64,000 nt of DNA, taken from the NCBI RefSeq assembly GCF_000474215.1, contig NZ_BAUC01000020.1:98944-162943 (forward strand). The letters are read 5' to 3'. The position numbers and the translations under genes were made by a program. The notes under the pieces are model-generated. The model was not told the origin of the DNA and did no database searches. It saw nothing but the letters and a program-made list of their open reading frames with translations. This stretch comes from Edwardsiella hoshinae NBRC 105699 = ATCC 33379 (GTDB lineage: Bacteria; Pseudomonadota; Gammaproteobacteria; Enterobacterales; Enterobacteriaceae). Of the stretch, positions 34,024-48,763 are shown one piece after another; positions within the stretch are counted from its first letter, which is position 1, and every line of letters starts with the position of its first letter.

Positions 34024-35559
34024 TTATAGGCCAGTGGGGTGTGGCGGGCAGCGCTCCAACAGCTCGACGCCGCCGTCCGGGTTGAGCTGCTCTAGATAGA
34101 CATCGAAGCCCCACAACCGTTGTAGATGCTTGAGTACCGCGCGACGGCTATTCCCCTCCAGCGGAATGCGATTGTGAGGAATATAGCGCAGGGTCAACGA
34201 ACGGTCACCGCGCAGCGCGACGTTCCACACCTGAATGTTTGGCTCCAGATTACTCAGATTATACTGGGCGGAAAGACGTTCGCGCAGGCGTCGGTAACCG
34301 TCCTCATTATGGATCGCCTCGATCTCCAGATAGTTGTTGCGATCGTCGTCTTGCACGCAGAATAGGCGAAACTCGCGCATCAGACGTGGCGAGAGAAACT
34401 GGCTGATAAAGCTCTCATCCTTGAAGTCGCGCATGGCGAAGTGCAATGTTTCCAGCCAATCGCGCCCGGCGATGTCGGGGAACCATTCACGATCTTCCGT
34501 CGTCGGTTGTTGGCAGATACGCTTAATATCTTGATACATGGCGAAACCCAGCGCATAGGGATTGATGCCGCTATAGTAGGGGCTGTTATAGGCGGGCTGG
34601 GCGATGACATTAGTATGACTATGCAGAAACTCCAGCATAAAGCGGTCGCTGACCTTCCCCTCGTCATATAAATGATTGAGAATGGTGTAGTGCCAGAAAG
34701 TGGCCCATCCCTCGTTCATGACTTGAGTCTGTTTTTGCGGATAAAAATACTGGCTGATCTTACGCACGATGCGCACGATCTCGCGCTGCCAGGGCTCCAA
34801 TAGCGGCGCGTTCTTCTCGATAAAATACAGAATGTTTTCTTGCGGTTCGCTGGGGAAGCGCGTCGCTTGGCGATCGGGGATGCCGACTTCACGGCGAGGC
34901 AGGGTTCGCCACAGATCGTTGACTTGGCTTTGCAGGTAGGCTTCGCGCGCCTGCTGGCGGGCACGCTCTTCGTCCAACGAGATCTTTTGTGGGCGTTTGT
35001 AGCGATCCACGCCATAGTTCATCAGGGCATGGCTGGAGTCGAGGATCTTCTCTACCTCTTCTACACCGTAACGCTCTTCGCACTGGCGGATGTAGTTACG
35101 GGCGAATAGCAGGTAGTCGATGATCGAGCCGGCGTCGGTCCAGGTACGGAACAGGTAGTTGTTCTTGAAAAACGAGTTGTGGCCATAACAGGCATGAGCC
35201 ATAACTAATGCCTGCAAGGTGATGGAATTCTCTTCCATCAGATAGGCGATGCAGGGATTAGCGTTGATCACGATCTCGTAGGCCAGCCCCTGTTGCCCTT
35301 GTTTATAGCGGCGTTCCGTCTCAATGAACTTCTTGCCGAAGGACCAGTGCGCATAGTTGATGGGCATGCCGATGCTGGAGTAGGCATCCATCATCTGCTC
35401 GGCGGTAATGATCTCGATCTGGTGTGGGTAGGTCGTCAGGCGATAGTGTTTGGCGACGCGATCGATCTCCGTCAGGTAGGTCTGCAATAACGGAAACGTC
35501 CAGTCCGGGCCATCACTCAGGCACCGGCTGCTGCGGGATCCCGCGGTTGATATGGCCAT
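34024..35559 (-). CDS. ycgB: SpoVR-family protein YcgB
   Basis: 511-residue protein, close to E. coli YcgB (LSDGPDWTF start region, MPINYAHWSFGKKFIETE, GYDRYKRPQK-like GVDRYKRPQKIS, ENILYFIEKNAPLLEPWQREI, QVMNEGWATFWHYTILN). The SpoVR family usually travels with the YeaG kinase and YeaH genes and is linked to stationary-phase stress and nitrogen starvation; no activity is established. The HExxH-like arrangement in NEGWATFWHYTI has been noted as metal-site-like, but that is speculation. Here yeaGH are 6.4 kb away on the same strand. Confidence 0.94.
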   Translation of the reverse strand: MAISTAGSRSSRCLSDGPDWTFPLLQTYLTEIDRVAKHYRLTTYPHQIEIITAEQMMDAYSSIGMPINYAHWSFGKKFIETERRYKQGQQGLAYEIVINANPCIAYLMEENSITLQALVMAHACYGHNSFFKNNYLFRTWTDAGSIIDYLLFARNYIRQCEERYGVEEVEKILDSSHALMNYGVDRYKRPQKISLDEERARQQAREAYLQSQVNDLWRTLPRREVGIPDRQATRFPSEPQENILYFIEKNAPLLEPWQREIVRIVRKISQYFYPQKQTQVMNEGWATFWHYTILNHLYDEGKVSDRFMLEFLHSHTNVIAQPAYNSPYYSGINPYALGFAMYQDIKRICQQPTTEDREWFPDIAGRDWLETLHFAMRDFKDESFISQFLSPRLMREFRLFCVQDDDRNNYLEIEAIHNEDGYRRLRERLSAQYNLSNLEPNIQVWNVALRGDRSLTLRYIPHNRIPLEGNSRRAVLKHLQRLWGFDVYLEQLNPDGGVELLERCPPHPTGL

Positions 35560-35791
35560 CGCACACCTCCCTTAAGTCGTTGTATGGACTGCGGCACGCC
35601 GTCCTGATACAAGCGTAGTCTACGGGAGTGAAACCTGCCGCCATCGAGATGTAACGTGCGAGCGCACCGGACGAGGGTCGAGCTAATGGGCGGACGGAAG
35701 GGGACGGGAAGGATGACGGAGAAAGGGTATACGGAACGTCCGGCGTCCTCATCCGGCACCGCAACGCGGGGGAGAGGACGCCGGTGGAAAA

Positions 35792-36007
35792 TCAGACGTC
35801 GCTGCGCGCGATGGTCTCGTCGCCCCAATAGAGTTGATCCTTGTCCGTCTTGGCGAAGGCCAAAGGCAGAACCTCATCGTTTCCTTCTTCCCAAATCTGT
35901 TGGGCCAGGGCTTCGTCATCGTGGGCGATTTCGAAGATGGCTTCGGCGATTTCTAAAGAGGTTTCACGCACGCGTGCCCATTCGGCAATGTGATGCGGCT
36001 TGGTCAT
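35792..36007 (-). CDS. yccJ: YccJ-family small acidic protein
   Basis: A 71-residue protein similar to E. coli Ycc[37 protein letters not shown] and [17 protein letters not shown]. The ribosome site AAGGAG is strong. YccJ has no known biochemical role; in E. coli it lies beside wrbA and agp, so its place beside the SpoVR gene is different here. Confidence 0.85.
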
Positions 36008-36198
36008 AAAAGGTCTCCTTGAAAATGATCGCGGTTACGGGGACGCGAACGATGCTCGTTACGCTGATCGGTTAACGCTACCCGTCCTGCTTTCACCATA
36101 ACGCAGCCTAAGCGGCGACGCCAGTACCTTATGTTGCCGTATGTTGCTAGGCTTGGACGCTAGCCAGACGCGGGAACCTAGCTGGCGCGATTGGCGTC

Positions 36199-36456
36199 TT
36201 AGGCGAGTTCGCCGCGAGCCGGCTGATCGCCCAGCAATCGATCCAATGCGCTGAGCAACAACGTCCGACGTTGTTGGCAGGATTCGTTGCGGGCCGTGCG
36301 TGCGATGGCATGAATCAAATCCCCATAAATGATGTCACCATCGCGTTCGATAAGCGCGCTGACGGTTTCACCGATCAGGCGAGATACTTCATGGTCGAAA
36401 TGCACGGTATCATGAAGGTGAATGCCGTGCTCGGGCAGTTCAGTGAGAGTACTCAT
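36199..36456 (-). CDS. YmgB/AriR-like small regulatory protein
   Basis: 85 residues from MSTLTELPEHGIHL, with GGGAAAG upstream; an in-frame ATG at 36480 lacks a ribosome site. The second half (EVSRLIGETVSALIERDGDI, then YGDLIHAIARTARNESC, then RRTLLLSALDRLLG) has the helical pattern of the YmgB/AriR family, which links biofilm formation and acid resistance in E. coli. The match is by eye and distant. Confidence 0.6.
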   Translation of the reverse strand: MSTLTELPEHGIHLHDTVHFDHEVSRLIGETVSALIERDGDIIYGDLIHAIARTARNESCQQRRTLLLSALDRLLGDQPARGELA

Positions 36457-37089
36457 GGTGTCTTTCCCTTGGTGTTGCAATAAATGACCCGGCGAGCGGT
36501 ATCGATTAACAAGCGAGTAAATAAGATGGCTGAATTAATTAGTCGACTATGTTTATAATTAATAACACTAGCATCTTTTGCCAATGATACCTATTTTGAC
36601 GGGCCGAGGATGTCATGTGTTGTGGCTTACTTCACAGTTAGTCGTTTTGTTTTACGCGAAGGCAGCGAAATTGGCCCATATCAGGGATGCTGTCGGAGCG
36701 GCGGCGCGTATTCGACGTCTACCGTAGCGGGATATCCTGTGCCGTTACCTCTGCTAATCATAAGTATGAGTTACCTTTTGTTCTGTATCTCGCGTGGTGT
36801 CGCCGCCATATCATGGAGGCCATTCTCCTTGCGGCATCTCGCTTGTTGATCACCCGTTATCGCCTTAGGCCTCGGCTGAGGGAGAGTTATCGGCGTGAAT
36901 TGCCATGAGCCTGGTCATTATTTTGCTAACACAGCGAGCGAGAAATAGTGATAAATATAACAATCGCATGGTTAAGTTAAAATATAACACTAAAATAAAT
37001 GATTTATTTGGTGATCTGTTTCAATAATCAGGCAAATCGCAGGTTATATTATTCCCGCTCCTAAAAATGGATATTCAAGGGGGGCGGCA
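36457..37089. other. AT-rich gene-poor gap before the M18 aminopeptidase
   Basis: 633 bases with no gene I can support. Parts (36520-36600 and 36920-37080) are strongly AT-rich against the GC-rich background. Two short overlapping frames at 36610-36849 and 36687-36908 have no clear ribosome site; the second ends in an Arg-rich helix. The 3-prime part should carry the promoter for the downstream operon. Confidence 0.5.
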
Positions 37090-38508
37090 ATGGATGACTA
37101 TTTATCTTCTGAATATATAGACCAGGTGGAATTATTTTGTAAGGGATATAAAGCCTTTCTCAATCGAGCTAAAACCGAGCGGGAGTGTATTCGCGTGATT
37201 CGCGATGAGGCGAACCGACAAGGGTTTACTCCTTTAGTGGCCACGGAGACGCTGGTGGCCGGGGGAAAATATTATTGTAGTAATCGCAATAAGAGCATGG
37301 CGTTGATCGTCATGGGGCGTGCGCCCTTAAGCCAGGGGGTGCGTATTATTGCCGCACACTGTGACGCGCCGCGTCTCGATCTGAAGCCGAACCCGCTCCA
37401 TGAGGCGCAGGGATTGGCGCTGATGCGTACCCATTATTACGGTGGGATCAAGAAGTACCAGTGGGGGGCCAGACCATTGGCGTTGCATGGCGTGGTCTTC
37501 ACCCGGCAACATGGGCGTATCGAGCTAGCCTTGGGGGAGCGGGACGACCAGCCGGTGTTCGCCATTCCCGATCTATTGCCGCATTTGGATGCGAAGATCC
37601 AGCGTAAGCGCCCGGGCGATGAGCTATTAAAGGGGGAAGAGTTGCAGATCCTGGTGGGAAGCCTCCCCTTAGCCGACTTGGCAGAAGAGACCAAGGCGCG
37701 GGTTAAGCACCAGATCTTGGCGTGTTTGCAGCGTGACTATGCGCTAGAAGAGGCCGACTTCCTGCGCGCCGAGCTGGCGCTGGTGCCAGCCGGCGACAGC
37801 CGCGATGTCGGCTTCGATGGCTCGCTGCTCGGCGGCTATGGTCAAGATGACCGAGTGTGTGTCTATACAGCATGGCAGGCATTGCTGGCCTGTGCGCAAC
37901 CGGAACAGACTCTACTTTGTCTGTTCTTGGATAAAGAGGAGACCGGATCGGCGGGGGCTACCGGGATGCAGTCCGATTTCTTCCCCTGGGTGATTGAGAT
38001 GTTGTTGCAGCGTACCCCCGGGGCGGCAGTTAGCCAATTGCGTCAGTGTCTCTGGCACTCTTACGCCCTGTCGGCGGATGTGGTGCCGGCGCTCGACCCG
38101 CTGTTTCCCGAGGTTCATGACGCCGATAACGCCGCTCGCTTAGGCGGGGGAATGGTGTTGAGTAAATACACCGGGGCGGGAGGGAAGAACTTGACCAACG
38201 ATGCCGATGCCGAATACCTTGCCCTGTTGCAACAGATGTTGGATCGTCACGCCTTACGCTGGCAGAACGGTTTGTTAGGTAAGGTCGATGAGGGTGGGGG
38301 AGGCACTATCGCCCGCTTCCTCGCCCAGCATGGCCCCTGCGTCGTCGACGCTGGCGTGCCCTTGCTCTCCATGCACTCGCCGTTTGAGATCAGCGCCAAG
38401 TCCGACATCTGGCAAGCCTTCCAAGGATATCGTCACTTTTTCGCCGCCACCTTTCCCTGTCCGTCACATCTGTACGATGAGGAGAGGATGCTGGGAGGTG
38501 CCTCATGA
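37090..38508 (+). CDS. M18-family aminopeptidase
   Basis: 472-residue zinc aminopeptidase of the M18 (aspartyl aminopeptidase/AMP1) family. Metal-binding and catalytic motifs are all visible: AAHCDAPRLDLKP near residues 93-105, LDKEETGSAGATG near 280-292, HSYALSADVVPALDP near 320, and the C-terminal PLLSMHSPFEISAKSDIW with the last metal His. It should remove N-terminal residues from short peptides in the cytoplasm; the exact residue preference cannot be read. GGGGCGG-type ribosome site. It overlaps the following transporter gene by four bases (ATGA), so uptake and hydrolysis are probably coupled. Confidence 0.9.
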   Translation: MDDYLSSEYIDQVELFCKGYKAFLNRAKTERECIRVIRDEANRQGFTPLVATETLVAGGKYYCSNRNKSMALIVMGRAPLSQGVRIIAAHCDAPRLDLKPNPLHEAQGLALMRTHYYGGIKKYQWGARPLALHGVVFTRQHGRIELALGERDDQPVFAIPDLLPHLDAKIQRKRPGDELLKGEELQILVGSLPLADLAEETKARVKHQILACLQRDYALEEADFLRAELALVPAGDSRDVGFDGSLLGGYGQDDRVCVYTAWQALLACAQPEQTLLCLFLDKEETGSAGATGMQSDFFPWVIEMLLQRTPGAAVSQLRQCLWHSYALSADVVPALDPLFPEVHDADNAARLGGGMVLSKYTGAGGKNLTNDADAEYLALLQQMLDRHALRWQNGLLGKVDEGGGGTIARFLAQHGPCVVDAGVPLLSMHSPFEISAKSDIWQAFQGYRHFFAATFPCPSHLYDEERMLGGAS

Positions 38509-39962
38509 TTCGGCGTTACCCCACGACGTTCTATATTCTGTGCGCTTGCCAGTTTTGGTGGGCGGTCTCCTTCTACAGTCTGTGGACCGTACTGCCGGTC
38601 TTTCTGCATGATGCGCTCCACCTCGACGAGAAAAGCGCCTTCAGCATCTTTGGTAGTTTCACGGCCATCGGCGCTTCATTATTGTTTGTCGGAGGCTGGC
38701 TGGCGGACAAGGTGTTAGGCGCCAAACGTACCCTGTGGTGGGGCTACGCCTTCCAAGGGGTGGGCTATGCGCTGATTACCTATGCCTCGCTCAGCGAGGT
38801 GACGCTGTGGCTTTTCGCCGGTCTAGGCTGCGTGATCGTTGGGCGTAGTATCGGCGGGGTGGCGGCCCCGGCGTTGGTCGCCGCAGCCTACAATCAGGGC
38901 GATCAACGCTTGGATAGCGCCTTCACCTTGTTTTACATGGTCAACAATATCGGCGCCTTCTTGACGACCATCGCGGCGGCGGAGGTCGCCGCCCGCCTCG
39001 GCTGGCAGGCGGCATTTATCCTCAGTACGGCGGGGATGGTGATCAACCTGTTGCTGTTGGCGCGTTACAAGCGCTATCTGGTGAATGCCAGCCCGGTAGA
39101 TAGCCGCAAGCCAGGGGGGCGTATCATGGCCGCTTACCTGGGCAGTGCGTTGCTGGTGGTGGGGATGAGCATGTTTCTGTTGCGCGAGCTGCTGATCACT
39201 CGGCTGCTGTTGCTGACCGTCGCCCTGATCATCTTGCTGTTGATCGTGCGTATCCTGCGCCGAGAGCCGCGGATCTCGCGTCTCAAGATGGTGGTGGGGG
39301 TGGTGCTGATGGGGCAAGCCTTAGTGTTCTTTATCCTCTACAACCAGATGCCGACCTCGCTGAACTTCTTCGCCATCAATAACGTGCGACCTTCTCTGCT
39401 GGGGATTGTTATCAATCCGGTCTCCTTCCAGGCACTGAATCCGATGTGGGTCATCGTACTCAGTCCCGGTTTGGCCTGGCTCTATACCTGGCTGGGAGAG
39501 CGCGGGCGAGATCCGTCTATGCCGGTTAAGTTCGCCGTGGGAATGCTGGCCTGTGCCGCCGCGTTTGCCTGCGCCGGTAGCGCCCGCTTCTTCGCGAATG
39601 ACCAGGGTATTGTCTCACCGTTCTGGATCATCGCGCCGCATCTGCTATTCGCCATCGGCGAGTTGCTGATCTCGGCGTTGGGGCAGTCGATGCTGGCTAA
39701 GTTGTTCCCGCGTGAGGTTCGCGGTTTTATCTATGGCGCCTGGGGGATGGTGCTGGCGTTGGCTTCGCTGGGCGCGGCCTGGCTGGCCGGTTTCTCCGCC
39801 AGCGACAACGACGCCGGGAGGGACGCGTTACATTCCCTGCAACAGTACGCTAGCTATTTCTATGCTTTAGCGCTGGCGACGGTGATTGTGGCGTTGATCT
39901 GCTGGTGGCTGGCGCCACGGCTGGATAGGTTGATCAATACGCCCGCGTCACCCACAGCGTAG
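38505..39962 (+). CDS. POT-family-like transporter lacking the proton-coupling motif
   Basis: 485-residue membrane protein with about 14 hydrophobic segments, plainly related to DtpA-type peptide transporters: GGWLADKVLGAKRT, LDSAFTLFYMVNNIGAF, LYNQMPTSLNFFAINNV, FQALNPMWVIVLSP, AIGELLISALGQSM. But helix 1 reads CQFWWAVSFYSLW where DtpA has IELWERFGYYGLQ, so both Glu and the Arg of ExxERFxYY are gone, and the conserved Lys of helix 4 is replaced (GRSIGGVAAPALV). The helix 10 Glu is kept. It is translationally coupled to an aminopeptidase, which supports a peptide or amino acid conjugate as substrate; coupling to protons may differ. Confidence 0.85.
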   Translation: MIRRYPTTFYILCACQFWWAVSFYSLWTVLPVFLHDALHLDEKSAFSIFGSFTAIGASLLFVGGWLADKVLGAKRTLWWGYAFQGVGYALITYASLSEVTLWLFAGLGCVIVGRSIGGVAAPALVAAAYNQGDQRLDSAFTLFYMVNNIGAFLTTIAAAEVAARLGWQAAFILSTAGMVINLLLLARYKRYLVNASPVDSRKPGGRIMAAYLGSALLVVGMSMFLLRELLITRLLLLTVALIILLLIVRILRREPRISRLKMVVGVVLMGQALVFFILYNQMPTSLNFFAINNVRPSLLGIVINPVSFQALNPMWVIVLSPGLAWLYTWLGERGRDPSMPVKFAVGMLACAAAFACAGSARFFANDQGIVSPFWIIAPHLLFAIGELLISALGQSMLAKLFPREVRGFIYGAWGMVLALASLGAAWLAGFSASDNDAGRDALHSLQQYASYFYALALATVIVALICWWLAPRLDRLINTPASPTA

Positions 39963-40043
39963 CGTGTATGAGCGGCGTTAACATCACGATTAAGGTGGCT
40001 GTGATGTAAGGCGGCCGGGGCGTGATGCCCCGGCCGTCGGCGT

Positions 40044-41816
40044 TTAATGTGCACCGAGTGGGGAGATCTCGACCTGTGCCGGCGCGAAGTCGGGTGCGGC
40101 GTCTTGGGAGGACGTTGTCTTGCTAAAGTGCCAGCGCAGGGTATGGAACGGCGCGACGCTGCTGCGATGCGCTACGCTGATCAGGGTCAGGCCCGGTAAC
40201 CACGCCTCCAGTAGGCGGTAGACATGCTGTTCGGTGTCTTCATCCAGGGCGCTGGTCGCCTCGTCCAGATACAGAATATCCGGTTGCAACGCCAGGGCAC
40301 GGGCGAAAGCGATGCGCTGCTGCTCGCCGGGTGAGAGCTGTTGCGACCAGTTGGCGCGTGTCGCCAGTTGATCACACAGGTGATTCAGGCGACAGGCGCG
40401 GAGGATCGTTTGCAGTTGCTCATCGCTGTGGGTCGTGGCGTTATAGGGGTAACAGATGGCATCGCGCAGGCTGCCTATCGGCAGATAGCTGCGCTGTGGC
40501 AGGAATAGGGTGCGCAGCGTCTCCTCGTCTGGGCGCAAGATTTCGCCGTGGCCATAAGGCCAGACGCCAGCGATGGCGCGCAACAGCGTCGACTTGCCAC
40601 AACCGGACGGCCCGGTGATCAGGATACGATCGCCGCGCTGTACCTGTAGACTAACCTCATTGAACAGCGTGCGCCCCTGGTGAATTTGCAGCGTCAGCCG
40701 GTTGATCATCAGCGCCTGATCGGCATCCTGGGTCCGGCCATGGCGAATATCGCCGGGATGCTGCGCCAGATCGGCCACGGCTTTATTGAACCCCGCCAGA
40801 CGGTTGACACAGGCTTTCCAGGCGGCCAGATCGTCGAACGCGTTGATAAACCAAGAGAGCGCCCCCTGTACCTGGCCGAAGGCCGAGGAGATCTGCATCA
40901 GGGTGCCGAGCTGAATGGCGTTGGCGAAATAACGTGGGGCGGCCACCAGGATCGGGAAGATGATGGCGAACTGACCATAGAAGTTACTGGCGAAATTCAG
41001 GCGCCGGGTCAGACGCATGATGCTCCACCAGTTACGGCGGATGTTCTGGAACTGGCCATCGAGCTGCTGGCGCTCCTGCGGCTCGCCATGATACAGGGCG
41101 ATGGGGTCGGCATTATGACGGATGCGGATCAGGCCAAAGCGGAAGTTGGCCTCGAAACGCTCCTGATCAAAGGAGAGATTGACCAACGGTCGGCCGACCA
41201 GCCAGATCATCAAGGAGCCCAGTCCGGCGTAGAGCAGGGCGAACCACACCATGTAACCGGGGATCTCCAGGGCATGGCCGGCGATCATCAGCGACAGCGA
41301 ACCAGAAACCGACCACAGGATGGCGACGAAAGAGAACAAGGTCACCAGGCTGGAGAGCAGTCCCAAGGTTAGGGAGAGGGTGCCGTTAGTCAACGCACTC
41401 AGATCCTGGGCAATACGCTGGTCGGGGTTATCGATCGATTGCTGCATCTCGGTATGGTAGTAAGCCTGGTGCTGTAGCCAGCGATCCATATAGCGCCGGG
41501 TCATCCACTGGCGCCACAGCATTTGCAGCCCTTGGGTCAGATAGATGCGGAAGATGGCGATGGCGATGTAGATAAACGCCAGATAGCTGAAACGGATTAA
41601 TTGCGCCTTAAACACCGCATAGTTGCGGTTTTGCAGAGCATCGTAGAATACGCGGTTCCACTCGTTAAACAGGACGTTCAGATACACCGCGGCCAGCGTC
41701 AGCACGATGATGGCGCACAGACGACTCCAGGCGCTGAATTTTTCGTCCGAGACCCAATAGGGTTTGATCAGGTGCCACACTTCTCGCCAGTGGGTGGCTT
41801 TTTGGCTGGAATGCAT
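40044..41816 (-). CDS. YddA/SbmA-type ABC transporter, fused permease-ATPase
   Basis: 590-residue half transporter with an N-terminal SbmA/BacA-like membrane domain (VLFNEWNRVFYDALQNRNY, then several helices to about residue 310) and a C-terminal ATPase: Walker A GPSGCGKSTLLRAIAG, signature LSPGEQQRIAFARAL, Walker B ILYLDEATSALDE. Close in organisation to E. coli YddA; relatives handle vitamin B12, bleomycin-like or peptide substrates. The substrate here is unknown. It is convergent with the POT-like gene, with 80 bases between, and sits alone on its strand. Confidence 0.88.
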   Translation of the reverse strand: MHSSQKATHWREVWHLIKPYWVSDEKFSAWSRLCAIIVLTLAAVYLNVLFNEWNRVFYDALQNRNYAVFKAQLIRFSYLAFIYIAIAIFRIYLTQGLQMLWRQWMTRRYMDRWLQHQAYYHTEMQQSIDNPDQRIAQDLSALTNGTLSLTLGLLSSLVTLFSFVAILWSVSGSLSLMIAGHALEIPGYMVWFALLYAGLGSLMIWLVGRPLVNLSFDQERFEANFRFGLIRIRHNADPIALYHGEPQERQQLDGQFQNIRRNWWSIMRLTRRLNFASNFYGQFAIIFPILVAAPRYFANAIQLGTLMQISSAFGQVQGALSWFINAFDDLAAWKACVNRLAGFNKAVADLAQHPGDIRHGRTQDADQALMINRLTLQIHQGRTLFNEVSLQVQRGDRILITGPSGCGKSTLLRAIAGVWPYGHGEILRPDEETLRTLFLPQRSYLPIGSLRDAICYPYNATTHSDEQLQTILRACRLNHLCDQLATRANWSQQLSPGEQQRIAFARALALQPDILYLDEATSALDEDTEQHVYRLLEAWLPGLTLISVAHRSSVAPFHTLRWHFSKTTSSQDAAPDFAPAQVEISPLGAH

Positions 41817-41970
41817 GCGATGACTTTCCTACAGCATGAAAATTAAAATTTAACTGTCCGTATTAGGCCACAAAATATGAAAAATGTTCTGCACCGCTTT
41901 GTAAAGTAATTTAATGATACGCGAAAAGTCAGCAGGTTATGCCGCCCAGCGGGCGGCAGGGGCGAGGGAT

Positions 41971-43242
41971 TCAATCGTTGATGAGCTGACGGGCGAACAA
42001 CTCACGGAATACCGGGTAGATGTCCTGCTGTTCGCGGATATGTTGCATGGCGAAGTTGTCGCAACTGCGGCTCAAGGCCTCATATTCACGCCACAGGGTC
42101 TGGTGAGCGCGACGGGTGATCTCGATGTAGCAGTAGTAGCGCACCAAGGGTAACAGGCGTTCGCTCAATAGCGTCTGACACAGCGGCGAGTCGTCGGCCC
42201 AGTTGTCGCCGTCGGAGGCCTGCGCGGCGTAGATATTCCACTGCGCCGGATCATAGCGCGCGCGCACGATTTCATCCATCAGCTTCAAGGCGCTGGAGAC
42301 GATGGTGCCGCCGGTCTCCTGGGAATAGAAAAACTCCTGTTCATCGACCTCCTTGGCTTGCGTATGGTGGCGAATGTAGACCACTTCGATATTCTTATAG
42401 TTACGGCTCAGAAACAGATACAGCAGAATATAGAAGCGTTTCGCCATCTCCTTGGTGGCTTGATCCATCGATCCGGAGACATCCATCAGGCAGAACATCA
42501 CCGCCTGGCTAGAAGGTTCGGGGCGCCGTTCATAATTCTTGTAGCGGAGATCGATGCTGTCGATGAACGGTACCCGGGCGATACGCTGGCGTAGCGCCTC
42601 GATCTCACGGCGTAGACGCAGGCTTTCTAGGGGCTGTGCTGGCTCACGCTGTTGTAGCGCATCGAGCTGCTCCTCCAACTGGCGTAACTCACGCCGTTTG
42701 GCGGCGCTCATCGCGGTACGCCGAGCCAAGGAGTTCTGTAGCGAACGCACCACACTGATGTTAGCCGGCACCCCGCTGGCGGTGTAGCCGGCGCGATGGC
42801 TCTTAAACTCGGTCAGCTGGCGGTAGTGGTTGTGGCGTAGGTTGGGCAGCGCCAGATCGTCGAACAGCAGATCCAAGTACTCCTCTTTGGAGAGCTGGAA
42901 GACGAAGTCATCCTCGCCGCCTTCTCCGTTACCTGCTTCGCCGCTGCCTGCGCCCGTGCCGCCGCCCTGCTGACGCTCGATGCGGTCATGCTGTATGAAG
43001 TGATCATTACCAGGATGAACCCGTTGGCGTTCCCCCCCCGTCCCCTGTTGAAACAGGGGTTCGCTGATGTCATCGTGCGAGATGGTGACCGATTCGCCGC
43101 TCTCAACATCGGAGACGGAGCGGCGATGGATGGCATCCGCTACGGATTTCTTGATCTGCGCGGTGTAGCGGCGCAGGAAGCGCTGGCGGTTTACCGCGCT
43201 CTTGTTCTTGCCGTTTAGGCGACGATCGATAAAGTAAGACAT
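41971..43242 (-). CDS. yeaH: YeaH (UPF0229) von Willebrand-type protein
   Basis: 423-residue protein of the UPF0229 family. It contains a MIDAS-like metal site, [12 protein letters not shown], near residue 250, typical of von Willebrand A folds, and a Gly-rich charged linker ([21 protein letters not shown]). It follows yeaG after 59 bases. YeaG, YeaH and SpoVR proteins form a conserved stress set; the action of YeaH is not known. Confidence 0.94.
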
Positions 43243-43301
43243 GGCGCCTCCCTATCTGCCAAGCGCTGGAAAAGGGCGGCTAAACGCCGCCCCGCACACC
43301 C

Positions 43302-45236
43302 TTATGATGATTTGCGCACGCGCAGATACCATTCGCACAACAGGCGTACCTGCTTGCGGGTATAGCCCTTCTCCATCATGCGGTGCACGAAGTCATCGTG
43401 CTTTTTCTGCTCTTCGCTGGAGGTCTTGGCATTGAACGAGATCACCGGCAGTAGCTCCTCGGTGTTGGAGAACATCTTCTTCTCGATCACCGTGCGTAAC
43501 TTCTCATAGCTGGTCCAGTTGGGGTTATGCCCATTGTTGTGGGCACGGGCGCGCAGCACGAAGTTGACGATTTCATTACGGAAATCTTTCGGGTTACTGA
43601 TCCCCGCCGGTTTCTCGATCTTCTCCAACTCGGCGTTGAGCGATTCGCGGTCGAACAGTTGGCCGGTGTCCGGATCGCGGTACTCTTGATCCTGGATCCA
43701 GAAATCGGCATAGGTGACGTAACGGTCGAAAATGTTCTGTCCATACTCCGAATAGGACTCTAGGTAGGCGGTCTGGATCTCCTTACCGATGAATTCGACA
43801 TATTTCGGGATCAGGTAGCCCTTCAGGTGTTCGAGATACTTTTCCGCCACCTCCTGCGGGAACTGTTCGCGCTCGATCTGCTGTTCCAATACATAGAACA
43901 GATGCACGGGGTTAGCCGCCACCTCGCCGTGGTCGAAGTTAAACACCTTGGAGAGGATCTTAAAGGCGAAGCGGGTCGACAGGCCGTTCATGCCTTCATC
44001 CACCCCGGCATAGTCGCGATACTCTTGATAAGATTTAGCCTTGGGATCGGTATCTTTCAGACTTTCGCCATCGTAGACGCGCATCTTGGAGTACAGACTG
44101 GAATTCTCCGGGCTCTTCAGGCGCGACAACACGCTGAAGCTGGCCAGGGTCTCCAGGGTTCCGGGAGCACAGGGCGCCAATGCCAATTCGCTGTTATGCA
44201 ACAGCTTGTCGTAGATCTTAATCTCCTCCGAGATACGCAGGCAGTAGGGTACTTTGACGATGTAGACACGGTCGAGGAAGGCTTCGTTGTTCTTGTTATT
44301 GCGGAACTGTACCCACTCCGATTCGTTGGAGTGTGCCAGAATGATGCCGCTAAAGGGCAGGGCGGAAATCCCCTCGGTACCGTTATAGTTACCCTCTTGG
44401 GTTGCGGTCAGCAACGGGTGTAACACCTTGATCGGCGCCTTAAACATCTCCACGAACTCCATGATCCCCTGATTGGCCCGACACAGCGCGCCGGAGTAAC
44501 CATAGGCATCGGGATCGTTTTGGGCGTAATGTTCTAGCTTACGGATATCCACTTTACCCACCAGGGCGGAGATATCCTGATTGTTTTCGTCACCCGGTTC
44601 GGTCTTGGCGATGGCGATCTGATGCAGGATCGATGGCCACACCTTGACTACCCGGAACTGGGTGATATCGCCGCCGAATTCGTGCAGCCGCTTGGCCGCC
44701 CAGGGCGACATGATGGTGCCCAGGTAGCGTGGCGGGATGCCATACTCTTGGCTCAGTAAGGCGCCATCCTGCTGGTGATGGAACAGACACAGCGGGTGGT
44801 CGTTGACCGGACTGCGTTCACCGTTGGCACTCAACACATAGATGGGGACGCATTGCATCAACGCCTTCAATCGTTCGGCCAGTGAGGATTTACCCCCGCC
44901 GACCGGCCCCAGCAGATAGAGGATCTGCTTCTTCTCTTCTAATCCCTGCGCGGCGTGGCGCAGGTAGGCGACAATCTGCTCGATAGCCTCTTCCATACCG
45001 TAGAACTCGGCGAAGGCGGGGTAGCGGGCGATGACGCGGTTCGAGAATAGGCGGGAAAGGCGGGGATCCTGCGCGGTGTCGATCATTTCTGGGGTGCCGA
45101 TGGCCTGTAACAGGCGCTCGGCGGCGTTGGCATAGGCGCTGCGATCCTGGCGGCAGAGGGTCAGAAAGGCTTGTAGCGTCAGCTCCTCATCCTTGGCCGA
45201 TTCATAACGCTGGCGATATTGTTCAAATATGTTCAT
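43302..45236 (-). CDS. yeaG: PrkA-family serine protein kinase YeaG
   Basis: 644-residue AAA-like protein kinase of the PrkA family. Walker A is LLGPVGGGKSSLAERLK near residue 103-118; the C-terminal kinase-like domain ends WYLRVRKSS. Nearly identical in pattern to E. coli YeaG, which is linked to nitrogen starvation and stationary phase. I start at MNIFEQYRQRYESAKDEE (45236), as in E. coli, rather than at 45248. First gene of yeaGH. Confidence 0.96.
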   Translation of the reverse strand: MNIFEQYRQRYESAKDEELTLQAFLTLCRQDRSAYANAAERLLQAIGTPEMIDTAQDPRLSRLFSNRVIARYPAFAEFYGMEEAIEQIVAYLRHAAQGLEEKKQILYLLGPVGGGKSSLAERLKALMQCVPIYVLSANGERSPVNDHPLCLFHHQQDGALLSQEYGIPPRYLGTIMSPWAAKRLHEFGGDITQFRVVKVWPSILHQIAIAKTEPGDENNQDISALVGKVDIRKLEHYAQNDPDAYGYSGALCRANQGIMEFVEMFKAPIKVLHPLLTATQEGNYNGTEGISALPFSGIILAHSNESEWVQFRNNKNNEAFLDRVYIVKVPYCLRISEEIKIYDKLLHNSELALAPCAPGTLETLASFSVLSRLKSPENSSLYSKMRVYDGESLKDTDPKAKSYQEYRDYAGVDEGMNGLSTRFAFKILSKVFNFDHGEVAANPVHLFYVLEQQIEREQFPQEVAEKYLEHLKGYLIPKYVEFIGKEIQTAYLESYSEYGQNIFDRYVTYADFWIQDQEYRDPDTGQLFDRESLNAELEKIEKPAGISNPKDFRNEIVNFVLRARAHNNGHNPNWTSYEKLRTVIEKKMFSNTEELLPVISFNAKTSSEEQKKHDDFVHRMMEKGYTRKQVRLLCEWYLRVRKSS

Positions 45237-45623
45237 AGCGATGCCCATCCTTTTGTCAGCACAAGTTAAGGAAGATGCCCCAACGGCACGATCGGCGGCG
45301 ACGCACCGCCGCCCTAAGGCATCCGCATCCGGCGGGCCGACCGCAGTCTCCCCCTGAGATCAAGCTTAGCGGACTCCCTCGAATGTGCGAGTGGGTTCCG
45401 TCTTTTTTTAAGCGATTTCAAGCACTCAGTTTAGGGTTTTTCCCGCGCGATGGCGGGGGAAAGAATGGGCAGCTACGCGTCAATCGGCCGTGGGATGGGG
45501 TGAGACGGAGAAGCGGATGAAAAGTGGCATGTTAACAATTTTTTAGATAAAAACTGATGCTATCAACCACTTAATGAGTATAATCATTCAACATATTTTT
45601 ATTTTTTATTGGATGATGTAAAG
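45237..45623. other. Divergent yeaG-mipA control region
   Basis: A 387-base gap. The right end is AT-rich with a perfect TATAAT at 45579-45584 for mipA; -35 is weak (TGATGC, 18 bases upstream). I looked for a sigma-54 (-24/-12) element before yeaG, expected from E. coli, and did not find a convincing one. No ORF with a ribosome site. Confidence 0.5.
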
Positions 45624-46466: not shown

Positions 46467-48722
46467 TTAGAAGTAGAAGGAAATATCGGCGGCGAAGTTT
46501 CGCCCCGGTGCGGTGAAGCGTTGTAGGCCAACTCTATCGCGATCTATCTGATTGGTTGTACCGAATTCTGGCAGGCTGCGTAGCGTGTCCCAGGTGCTAT
46601 ATTTTCGATTCAACAGATTAAAGACGCCGGCGCGCAGTGAAATATTATCACTGATGTTATAGTAGGCTGTGGTATCAAACACCACATAGCTCGCGCTCAG
46701 GTAGGGCCAGGGGCGGCCATTATGGATGGCCTGGCTCGCTTTTTTCTTTGCCGCATAGGTCATAAAGAATTCTGCGCCATATTTTCCGGCGAGATCGCGA
46801 TAGGCGATAGAGGAGACCCATTTAAAGGGTTGGATCGAGAGTAATGCGTTGCCATCGGCATCTTTTCCTCGGGCGTAGCTCAAGTTGTTGCGTAGGCTAT
46901 AGTTATCTTGCCCGCCTAGCGCCTTACTGATATGAAATTCGTTGCTCAGCTCTAGCCCCCAAATGGCTGCCGAGGCGACATTGGCGTATTGTAGGTGATT
47001 CTGCGACAGTGTCGGCTTGTTCCAGCGTGACGGATTGCTTGGATCGTACCAAGGATTAGGGACTTGTTTCTCGGTCTGCTTGAGATCGATAAAGTCAGTA
47101 TATTTGGTGTAATAGGCGTTGATTTTATTCTGGAGCAGCTCACCATGATAACTGAGGGCAATTTCGTTACTGAGGCCGTGCTCCTGTCTTAAGTTGGGAT
47201 TCGGCTCGACACGGTTAGCCGCGATGCTATCGCCATAATCGAAATAGAGTTCTTGTGCCGTAGGAATACGGAAACCCTTACCGATTTTATACTGCAACGT
47301 ATAGTTGGGCGTCATTGCGTAGTTGGCGCTCAGCGCCCATGAGAGGGCGGAATAGCGGTTAGGTTGGGGATCGCTATCTTTCGCCAGGGATAACACTCCC
47401 GCATCGGGCTTGTGCGTAACATGATCATAGCGGGCGCCGACGATAACGCTGAGCTTCTCGTCGGGCAGTGTGATCTCATCGACGAGGGTGGCATTGATAT
47501 CGCGGCTAGAGACAGGACGGATGATTTTTTTATCATCCAGATAGGGCTGTTTAGGATTACCCAACCAGGTCGTATCCGCATTCACATTATCAAAACGCTT
47601 CGTGGCATATTGGCTGCGTAGGGTCATATGATGGCGTGTTGCAAATAATGAGCCGTGATTGAATGAAATCTCGTTATTCAGGTAACGGCCATATTGGGTC
47701 AGTCGGCGGCGTTTCTCTTCGAAAATATCGCTATAAGATCCCTGCGCAGCGTTTTCATAGATCGTGCTAAAAGCCGTTTGGTCGATTTTTTGCCAGTTAA
47801 ACTCGGTCTTGACGCTGTCGATGTAAGCACTAGGTAGCCAGGTGTCGGAGATGCTATAACGCCTTTTTTCCGCAATATCATCACCGGTGCGATAGTATTT
47901 AGAGAAGAGGTACCATGATTTCTCATCGGTGTAGGTTTTTTCTTTAGCATATTCGACGGTAGCGCTAAGGGTGTGCGTCTCGCCTAGCATGAGATTGAAT
48001 TTGGAGAGCAGCGACTGACGTGTCCTATCCTGTGGATCTGGCGTGCCACGCGCATGGCCAAAGACATCGTTTTCATGACGGAAGTTGTCGGTTTCATGGC
48101 CGTTACGGTAAGTGTAGAGCAGCATGGCTTCCAACTGATCGCCGCTAAATGCGCCGCCGAGAGTCTGCATCTTTTCATCATTTTTTGAGCTATAGGCCGT
48201 GCGGGAAACAAAACCGCTATTACCCGATTTGATCAGATCGCTGGGATCTTTGCTGACATATTGTACGCCACCGCCTAAGGCGCCGCTGCCCAAGAATAAT
48301 GAGTCGGCGCCCTTGGTGATCAGCACGCTTTTCAGTTGCTCGGTTTCCACGTTGTTAATGCTGCCGTTAAAATAGCCATACCCCTTGTAAATCAGGTTGT
48401 CGAACGTTTCACCCTGCGGTATGCCATCGACGGAGATGGCCACGCGATCTTTATCGACACCACGCATGCTATAGCCATTATTGCCAAAGCGCCCGTCGCT
48501 GGAGACGCCGACATCGGGCAGGTGACGGACAATATCCTGCATATCGAAGATCAGCTGATTTTCTATCTCATTCTGCGAGATGGTCGTCTCATTGATTTTT
48601 TCTTCCTTTTTCTCGATGACATAAACAATATCCTCGGCGTTTTTTTTCTCCGGCTCCGCCGCTTGTGCCGAGAGCAGAGAGCAACAGGGCAACAGTGTGC
48701 TGAAAACGAGCTTTTTTATCAT
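46467..48722 (-). CDS. TonB-dependent haemoglobin/haem-type receptor
   Basis: About 751 residues. Signal peptide MIKKLVFSTLLPCCSLLSAQA, a TonB-box-like DIVYVIE, a plug domain (DVGVSSDGRFGNNGYSMRGV, LFLGSGALGGGVQY), and a 22-stranded barrel ending in the aromatic FAADISFYF. The IGKGFRIPTAQELYF and NLRQEHGLSNEIALSYHG stretches and the C-terminal VFNLLNRKYSTWDTLRS are typical of the haemoglobin/transferrin/lactoferrin receptor group (HmbR/HgbA-like). I place the start at 48722 or 48728 because the likely -10 (48755-48760) would put the transcript start inside the longest frame (48752). The gene is AT-richer than both neighbours and replaces E. coli yeaE, which suggests acquisition. Confidence 0.85.
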   Translation of the reverse strand: MIKKLVFSTLLPCCSLLSAQAAEPEKKNAEDIVYVIEKKEEKINETTISQNEIENQLIFDMQDIVRHLPDVGVSSDGRFGNNGYSMRGVDKDRVAISVDGIPQGETFDNLIYKGYGYFNGSINNVETEQLKSVLITKGADSLFLGSGALGGGVQYVSKDPSDLIKSGNSGFVSRTAYSSKNDEKMQTLGGAFSGDQLEAMLLYTYRNGHETDNFRHENDVFGHARGTPDPQDRTRQSLLSKFNLMLGETHTLSATVEYAKEKTYTDEKSWYLFSKYYRTGDDIAEKRRYSISDTWLPSAYIDSVKTEFNWQKIDQTAFSTIYENAAQGSYSDIFEEKRRRLTQYGRYLNNEISFNHGSLFATRHHMTLRSQYATKRFDNVNADTTWLGNPKQPYLDDKKIIRPVSSRDINATLVDEITLPDEKLSVIVGARYDHVTHKPDAGVLSLAKDSDPQPNRYSALSWALSANYAMTPNYTLQYKIGKGFRIPTAQELYFDYGDSIAANRVEPNPNLRQEHGLSNEIALSYHGELLQNKINAYYTKYTDFIDLKQTEKQVPNPWYDPSNPSRWNKPTLSQNHLQYANVASAAIWGLELSNEFHISKALGGQDNYSLRNNLSYARGKDADGNALLSIQPFKWVSSIAYRDLAGKYGAEFFMTYAAKKKASQAIHNGRPWPYLSASYVVFDTTAYYNISDNISLRAGVFNLLNRKYSTWDTLRSLPEFGTTNQIDRDRVGLQRFTAPGRNFAADISFYF

Positions 48723-48763
48723 ATGCATAACCCAGAAGTATCTAAAGGTCATACATAATAATT

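Follow-up and report, generated by a model that had tools for sequence, protein, structure and literature searches.

Within a 64,000 nt stretch of the Edwardsiella hoshinae NBRC 105699 = ATCC 33379 genome (contig NZ_BAUC01000020.1, positions 98,944 to 162,943; hereafter the window) we found that the gene of an M18 aminopeptidase and that of an unusual carrier of the proton-coupled oligopeptide transporter (POT) family belong together as a unit, as the first-pass annotation of this DNA had proposed. The carrier is a member of a clade in which the ExxER signature of transmembrane helix 1 (TM1) is replaced by QxxWA, and an M18 gene was adjacent in 17/17 readable clade loci, two of which have the genes in the opposite order. 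The reading that we favor, tentatively and at slightly less than even confidence, is that the two genes encode a POT-fold facilitator uncoupled from protons and an enzyme that drives net uptake by hydrolyzing peptides in the cytosol.

The window carrier matched Pfam PTR2 (PF00854) at 159 bits against a cut-off of 27, a match that begins at residue 75 and does not cover TM1. Its best solved relatives were DtpA (6gs1, 308 bits) and DtpB (8b17, 306 bits), and structure prediction returned a confident transporter-fold model with the 14-helix POT fold and the HA/HB linker helices. It scored below the NCBIfam equivalog cut-offs for DtpA (368.5 against 728 bits) and DtpB (346.1 against 856 bits), and reached only 88.8 bits with the DtpD profile, for which the cut-off is 623. 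This 3.71 Mb genome has five POT genes, i.e., DtpB, DtpA, DtpD, the window POT, and one more protein without the motif; the genome's own DtpB (1001.8 against 856 bits), DtpA (978.9 against 728 bits), and DtpD (758.4 against 623 bits) all pass their cut-offs. In alignments the TM1 sequence ELWERFGYY of DtpA and DtpB corresponds to QFWWAVSFY in the window POT, departing from the canonical ExxERFxYY, and GNGLFK in TM4 corresponds to GRSIGG, while GELLIS with Glu386 is retained; the initial description of a DtpA-like protein with a replaced ExxER signature, a lost helix 4 Lys, and a preserved helix 10 Glu was thereby confirmed. The window POT also differs from proteins of the QxxEY type such as DtpC and DtpD, having W19 in place of the second Glu and A20 at the Arg/Tyr position. 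The DtpD of the same genome (L003, 758/623 bits), unlike the window POT, still has WEY as well as the Lys of TM4 (FKSN), and DtpC, described as having an altered TM1 motif of QxxEY, retains the second Glu (PMC9309889).

A protein search with the carrier gave 224 matches, and among the 120 listed there was one group with 46–57% identity and one Edwardsiella tarda cluster at 91%, the latter holding the closest named homolog; a DtpA/DtpB group (33–40% identity) stood apart from the 46–57% group among these matches. We aligned 17 clade rows with 58 canonical rows, leaving out P0003 (the same as P0001), P0020 (odd start), P0021 (truncated), and P0022 and P0023 (both short), and an unrooted tree separated the clade from ten canonical rows with an SH-aLRT of 100. 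TM1 positions 16, 19 and 20 were Q/W/A in 17/17 clade rows against E/E/R in 58/58 canonical rows, the canonical Gly at position 22 was Ser in 16/17 clade rows, and the canonical Gln at position 27 was an invariant Trp. At position 114 the Asn of 57/58 canonical rows was replaced by Arg in all clade rows, at position 147 the canonical Ile/Val by Asn (17/17), and at position 271 in TM7 the Glu of 47/58 canonical rows by Gln (17/17); the canonical Lys at TM4 position 118 was Ser, Asn, Gly, or Ala in the clade. The acidic residues that are invariant in predicted membrane helices of the clade are Asp68, Asp137, and Glu386, and by the predicted helix bounds Glu386 alone lies deep within its helix, the first two being close to helix ends. 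Asn and Gln residues of TM5, TM7, and TM8 are common to the clade and the canonical POTs. Judged from this alignment, the replacements are a fixed substitute set that marks a clade, rather than random loss or decay, since Q16, W19, A20, R114, and N147 are invariant in 17/17 rows and position 118 is never Lys. The first-pass annotation had allowed that the carrier might fall into an already known non-proton POT clade; our profile, structure, and literature searches brought up no bacterial POT clade of this kind already described as working without protons, and in the accessible open-licence literature we found no description of a bacterial motif-less POT clade or of its pairing with M18.

The ratios of nonsynonymous to synonymous substitution (dN/dS) between the two intact Edwardsiella copies were 0.086 for the POT gene and 0.091 for the M18 gene, with 0.065 and 0.022 for two neighbors; the pair is thus under purifying selection, though less constrained than SpoVR. 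These low values, the invariant new residues, the conservation of the pair in three lineages, and the confident transporter-fold model make it very improbable that the carrier acts as a sensor (transceptor) or is a paralog in decay that has no real transport, a reading that would fit the loss of all proton-coupling residues and the presence of only broken remnants of the pair in one sister genome.

We scanned our genome collection with the clade alignment and confirmed matches at 156 places. The best 80 comprised 66 canonical loci and 14 loci of the clade, the latter from 12 Photobacterium records, Kistimonas asteriae, and one Oceanospirillales metagenome-assembled genome (MAG). With up to 6 kb inspected on each side, an M18 gene was near 14/14 clade loci and 0/66 canonical loci. 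Adding two Edwardsiella genomes and one Photobacterium replicon gave the 17 readable clade loci noted above, all of which have an adjacent M18 gene and the TM1 pattern QF[WF]WA, while the canonical pattern was found in 66/66 canonical loci. In the 16 clade loci that were measured the two genes lie on one strand and are spaced −4 to 92 nt apart; the M18 gene comes first in Edwardsiella and Photobacterium, and the POT gene in Kistimonas and the Oceanospirillales MAG. The replicon was recovered from a search of plasmids that bore on the idea of a mobile element, which we rejected: 106 plasmid records have a POT, and among the ten listed one was a clade member, located on a 2.1 Mb Photobacterium replicon with M18 upstream. 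Three POT/M18 protein pairs were also found on equally long contigs (P0013/P0136, P0014/P0139, and P0016/P0140). As the Photobacterium loci are often near-copies (L006 and L007 are almost identical) with shared neighbors, they are not independent, and the independent evidence for linkage amounts to about four neighborhoods in three lineages. Whether the pairing had a single or separate origins was addressed with the approximately unbiased test, which did not reject a grouping of 11 POT-linked M18 proteins as one clade apart from nine others (p-AU 0.718, unrooted trees); the POT-linked M18 proteins may form one clade. The outer neighbors differ among the groups, apart from one loose cluster with ABC-ATPase homology. 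This cluster is present in Edwardsiella, in most Photobacterium, and at the Kistimonas locus, at varying distances.

It had been asked at first pass whether POT homologs without ExxER always lie beside M18 genes. This holds for the QxxWA clade (17/17) and does not hold for the second motif-less POT of the genome, L005 (L005:1249-2751 (+); contig 91, 75508-77007, outside the window), a QxxAT protein with QTFAT in TM1, GSGLNVT in TM4, and no TM4 Lys. L005 was matched in 8/60 related genomes at an E-value of 1e-120, five of them Edwardsiella, and a TM1 pattern search on these eight matches gave no pattern match in one (L152); in the stretches around those loci we found no M18 near the L005-type POT. 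Loss of the motif by itself does not predict the M18 link, since L005 has no motif and no M18 found nearby. The QTFAT of L005 is alike in pattern to the QGLAT of plant NPF7.

The partner enzyme of the window POT matched PF02127 at 300.5 bits and NCBIfam NF002600 at 590 bits against a cut-off of 529. Its M18 motifs are AHCDAPRLD (residue 89), GQDDR (251), DKEETGS (281), SADV (328), and MHSPFE (428). No signal peptide was seen by eye, and we therefore took the enzyme to be cytosolic. The best solved relatives were 1y7e (439.8 bits), 2glj (433.6 bits), and 2glf (391.8 bits), presumably the Borrelia, Clostridium, and Thermotoga M18 structures, respectively. The bacterial name ApeA and the three species with M18 structures (Borrelia, Clostridium, and Thermotoga) follow the human DNPEP paper (PMC3472314), as does the H.D.E.D.H metal set, which we placed on the M18 motifs by eye. 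The solved bacterial M18 structures are described there as lacking the P1-pocket Lys (Lys374 equivalent) that marks aspartyl specificity (PMC3472314), and the window M18, which aligns with 1y7e, may by analogy not be an aspartyl aminopeptidase. It is like the bacterial ApeA enzymes, passing the NF002600 cut-off, and differs from them in being tied to a carrier gene. Enzymes of this type are rare in Gammaproteobacteria, for although 57/369 genomes of the class had some M18 match, only 1/369 was over the cut-off.

In canonical POTs the carboxylate of the substrate and the protons are described as being handled by the Glu and Arg residues of TM1 and the TM4 Lys, and the amino end of the peptide as being held by the TM10 Glu together with Asn residues (PMC4331665, PMC9309889). 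The window POT has lost the proton and carboxylate set and kept the amino-end set. An aminopeptidase needs an unblocked amino end and does not depend on a free carboxylate, and as the carrier keeps its amino-end set the two proteins would make the same demand on a substrate. We propose that the substrates would be short peptides, or compounds resembling them, in which the amino end is free; Glu386 and the Asn residues would hold them as they enter down their own gradient. With the Arg and Lys that bind a carboxylate gone, the carrier probably binds the other end of the substrate in a different way, or that end is something other than a plain carboxylate. An uncoupled carrier would move solute only down a gradient, and a cytosolic peptidase that removes the substrate would keep this gradient pointing inward: by cutting off the first amino acid, M18 would hold the inside concentration low and make uptake one-way. 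Arg114 may stand in for the lost Lys in a TM4–TM10 charge pair that the transport cycle would still need. A more specific version, in which hydrolysis inside the cell has taken over from the proton gradient as the driving force and an uncoupled POT, locked to its own aminopeptidase, takes up substrates that have a free amino end and a blocked carboxyl end, such as amidated peptides and aminoacyl conjugates, is possible but somewhat doubtful.

Several points weigh against a facilitator that is uncoupled from protons and bound to its peptidase. DtpC is described as proton-coupled even though it lacks the first Glu and the Arg (PMC9309889), the proton dependence of the motif-less plant NPF7 carriers is reported to be disputed (PMC6288477), and Glu386 and Arg114 could themselves be proton carriers. 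A facilitator gains little from dilute media, and literature searches found no transport, substrate, or pH data for members of the clade. ApeA-type M18 enzymes also occur in many bacteria outside the clade (Fusobacterium and Clostridium names, among the matches listed), and eight clade proteins (P0009, P0010, P0012, P0015, P0017-P0019, and P0021) had no M18 on an equally long contig among the 120 matches listed, which neither shows absence nor gives support. The first of these points bear on an alternative in which the carrier is still an ion-driven symporter whose coupling has moved to Arg114 in TM4 and Glu386 in TM10, and which imports peptides that DtpA and DtpB handle badly for M18 to digest. 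A charge has indeed been kept near the pocket, Arg114 being invariant in 17/17 rows and one turn from the lost Lys; DtpC is described as transporting with a partly altered motif (PMC9309889), and the closest similarity of the clade is to DtpA and DtpB, which are proton-coupled. However, both TM1 carboxylate positions and position 271 are neutral in 17/17 clade rows, and mutating either motif Glu is reported to abolish uptake in studied POTs (PMC9309889; several POTs and NPFs, PMC6288477), so that we consider relocated coupling rather unlikely.

Precedents for transport by the POT fold without the proton gradient bear on a further alternative as well as on the facilitator reading. The nearest case among the sources consulted is the bacterial POT CPEPOT of Clostridium perfringens, which is reported to prefer proton-independent exchange (PMC10215352), so that net proton movement is not required for a POT fold to operate. 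CPEPOT is described as having neither the hairpin between its domains nor the gating salt bridges (PMC10215352), while the window POT model has both linker helices. In the plant NPF7 (QGLAT) and NPF2a/NAXT carriers ExxER is replaced by uncharged residues and passive or efflux behavior is reported, some NPF2a/NAXT members being described as passive or excretion carriers (PMC6288477); NPF7 and NPF2a are carriers of nitrate, chloride, and potassium, and no peptidase partner is mentioned for them in the available part of that source. Together with the loss of the carboxylate clamp in the clade, these cases make peptide exchange a serious rival to the facilitator: an incoming peptide might be swapped for the outgoing product of M18, or the carrier might let out amino acids or small peptides. 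Such an exchanger or exporter is nonetheless improbable in our estimate, as the conserved Glu386 and Asn residues for the amino end fit peptides rather than freed product alone, and as M18 breaks peptides down and among the Edwardsiella neighbors scanned we recognized no gene for making them; none of these points speaks against exchange itself.

The proposed facilitator with its peptidase finds a functional likeness in the lysosomal protein MFSD1 with its partner GLMP. MFSD1 lacks ExxERFxYY and is described as a dipeptide uniporter (PMC10990142), and hydrolysis by cytosolic aminopeptidases has been named as a driving force (PMC11252000). MFSD1-GLMP would thus work like the proposed pair, as a motif-less dipeptide facilitator pulled by cytosolic aminopeptidases, and differs from it in a low sequence similarity to POTs, the lack of HA/HB, and an accessory subunit (GLMP); the available text of these sources mentions no dedicated peptidase as a genetic partner. 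A 2023 survey of bacterial POTs is described as having dropped sequences without ExxER before counting (PMC10215352), a filter that would have hidden a clade such as this. Being ~37% identical to DtpA and DtpB and having a fixed alternative set, the clade offers a natural experiment on proton coupling as opposed to mere transport, while the M18 partner provides a handle on substrate and driving force, by which a POT running on substrate hydrolysis alone becomes testable. DtpA and DtpB, the canonical proton-coupled di- and tripeptide permeases, have ExxER where the clade has QxxWA, and the clade lacks their TM4 Lys and has Arg114 and Asn147.

Among five Edwardsiella genomes the pair is intact in two, one has broken remnants of both genes, and for the remaining two there was no tblastn hit for the pair at an E-value of 1e-3. 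In the second genome with the intact pair (G004) the pair and its flanks are collinear with the window; the remnants in the sister genome G001 (L141:5004-5935) comprise M18 residues 1-98 and POT residues 248-485, the latter in three frames, at the same site. As the pair is intact in 2/5 genomes with remnants at the same place in another, it was probably at this site before these species split and was later lost in part of the genus. The first-pass annotation had taken the AT-rich gap upstream of the pair as a sign of an inserted segment. The gap is real (44% against 58% GC), but insertion was not borne out, the M18 and POT genes having an ordinary composition (57.6% and 59.7% GC) and being located at the corresponding site of another Edwardsiella genome. 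We rejected an inserted segment within Edwardsiella on the collinearity of G004 and the position of the G001 remnants. Between SpoVR and the site of the pair (window about 35640-35800), three Edwardsiella genomes (L141, L142, and L143) have ~1.2 kb of extra DNA relative to the window.

On a wider scale a QxxWA POT was found in 1/394 genomes sampled from the order, with a maximum of three candidates scored per genome and the second Edwardsiella carrier lying outside the sample. Named relatives of the window M18 outside Gammaproteobacteria were from Fusobacterium and Clostridium (~50% identity), and the M18 of the Oceanospirillales MAG matched an Ilyobacter protein (66%) and a protein from a Bacteroidetes MAG (68%), all among the matches listed. 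Rarity in the order and class and the distant M18 relatives suggest that the pair may have an old lateral origin.

As initially described, an intact M18 gene overlaps the DtpA-like gene by ATGA, and both genes are intact at the coordinates given in Table 1.

Table 1. Coordinates in the window of the M18/POT gene pair, of altered and retained carrier codons, and of flanking features.
Feature	Coordinates	Strand	Remarks
M18 aminopeptidase gene (ApeA/aminopeptidase-1 type)	37090..38508	+	472 aa, intact
POT/PTR2-fold carrier gene, QxxWA clade	38505..39962	+	485 aa, intact
ATGA stop/start overlap of the M18 and POT genes	38505..38508	+	Read from sequence
GGGAGG, Shine-Dalgarno-like, 6 nt 5' of the POT start codon	38493..38498	+	Read from sequence
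Codons of TM1 residues 16-27, QFWWAVSFYSLW, replacing ExxERFxYY	38550..38585	+	Q16, W19, A20, W27 invariant in 17 clade rows
Arg114 codon in TM4, a basic residue new to the clade and invariant in it, one helical turn ahead of the former Lys	38844..38846	+	Alignment
Gly118 codon, site of the conserved TM4 Lys	38856..38858	+	Lys in 58/58 canonical and 0/17 clade rows
Asn147-Asn148 codons, TM5	38943..38948	+	Asn147 clade-specific; Asn148 common to all 75 rows
Glu386 codon, TM10, expected site for the peptide amino end	39660..39662	+	17/17 clade and 58/58 canonical rows
AT-rich leader region upstream of the pair	36481..37089	.	44% GC against 58% for the window
SpoVR gene, one flank of the M18/POT pair	34024-35559	-	Profile search
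SbmA/BacA-like membrane part fused to an ABC ATPase domain, convergent downstream neighbor of the pair	40044-41816	-	

There were no Rfam matches in the AT-rich leader, the sole weak match (E-value 0.56) being at 40015-40035, and promoter and terminator scans of 36300-40100 gave scores at the level of shuffled sequence. The SpoVR, DUF444, and PrkA genes (34024-45248) are split here by the M18/POT pair and the ABC transporter gene. This SbmA/ABC-like transporter gene is present in 5/5 Edwardsiella genomes, a few kb from SpoVR. Further along, at 46467-48752 on the minus strand, the window encodes a TonB-dependent receptor of the hemoglobin/transferrin/lactoferrin family (TIGR01786, 483 bits against a cut-off of 324).

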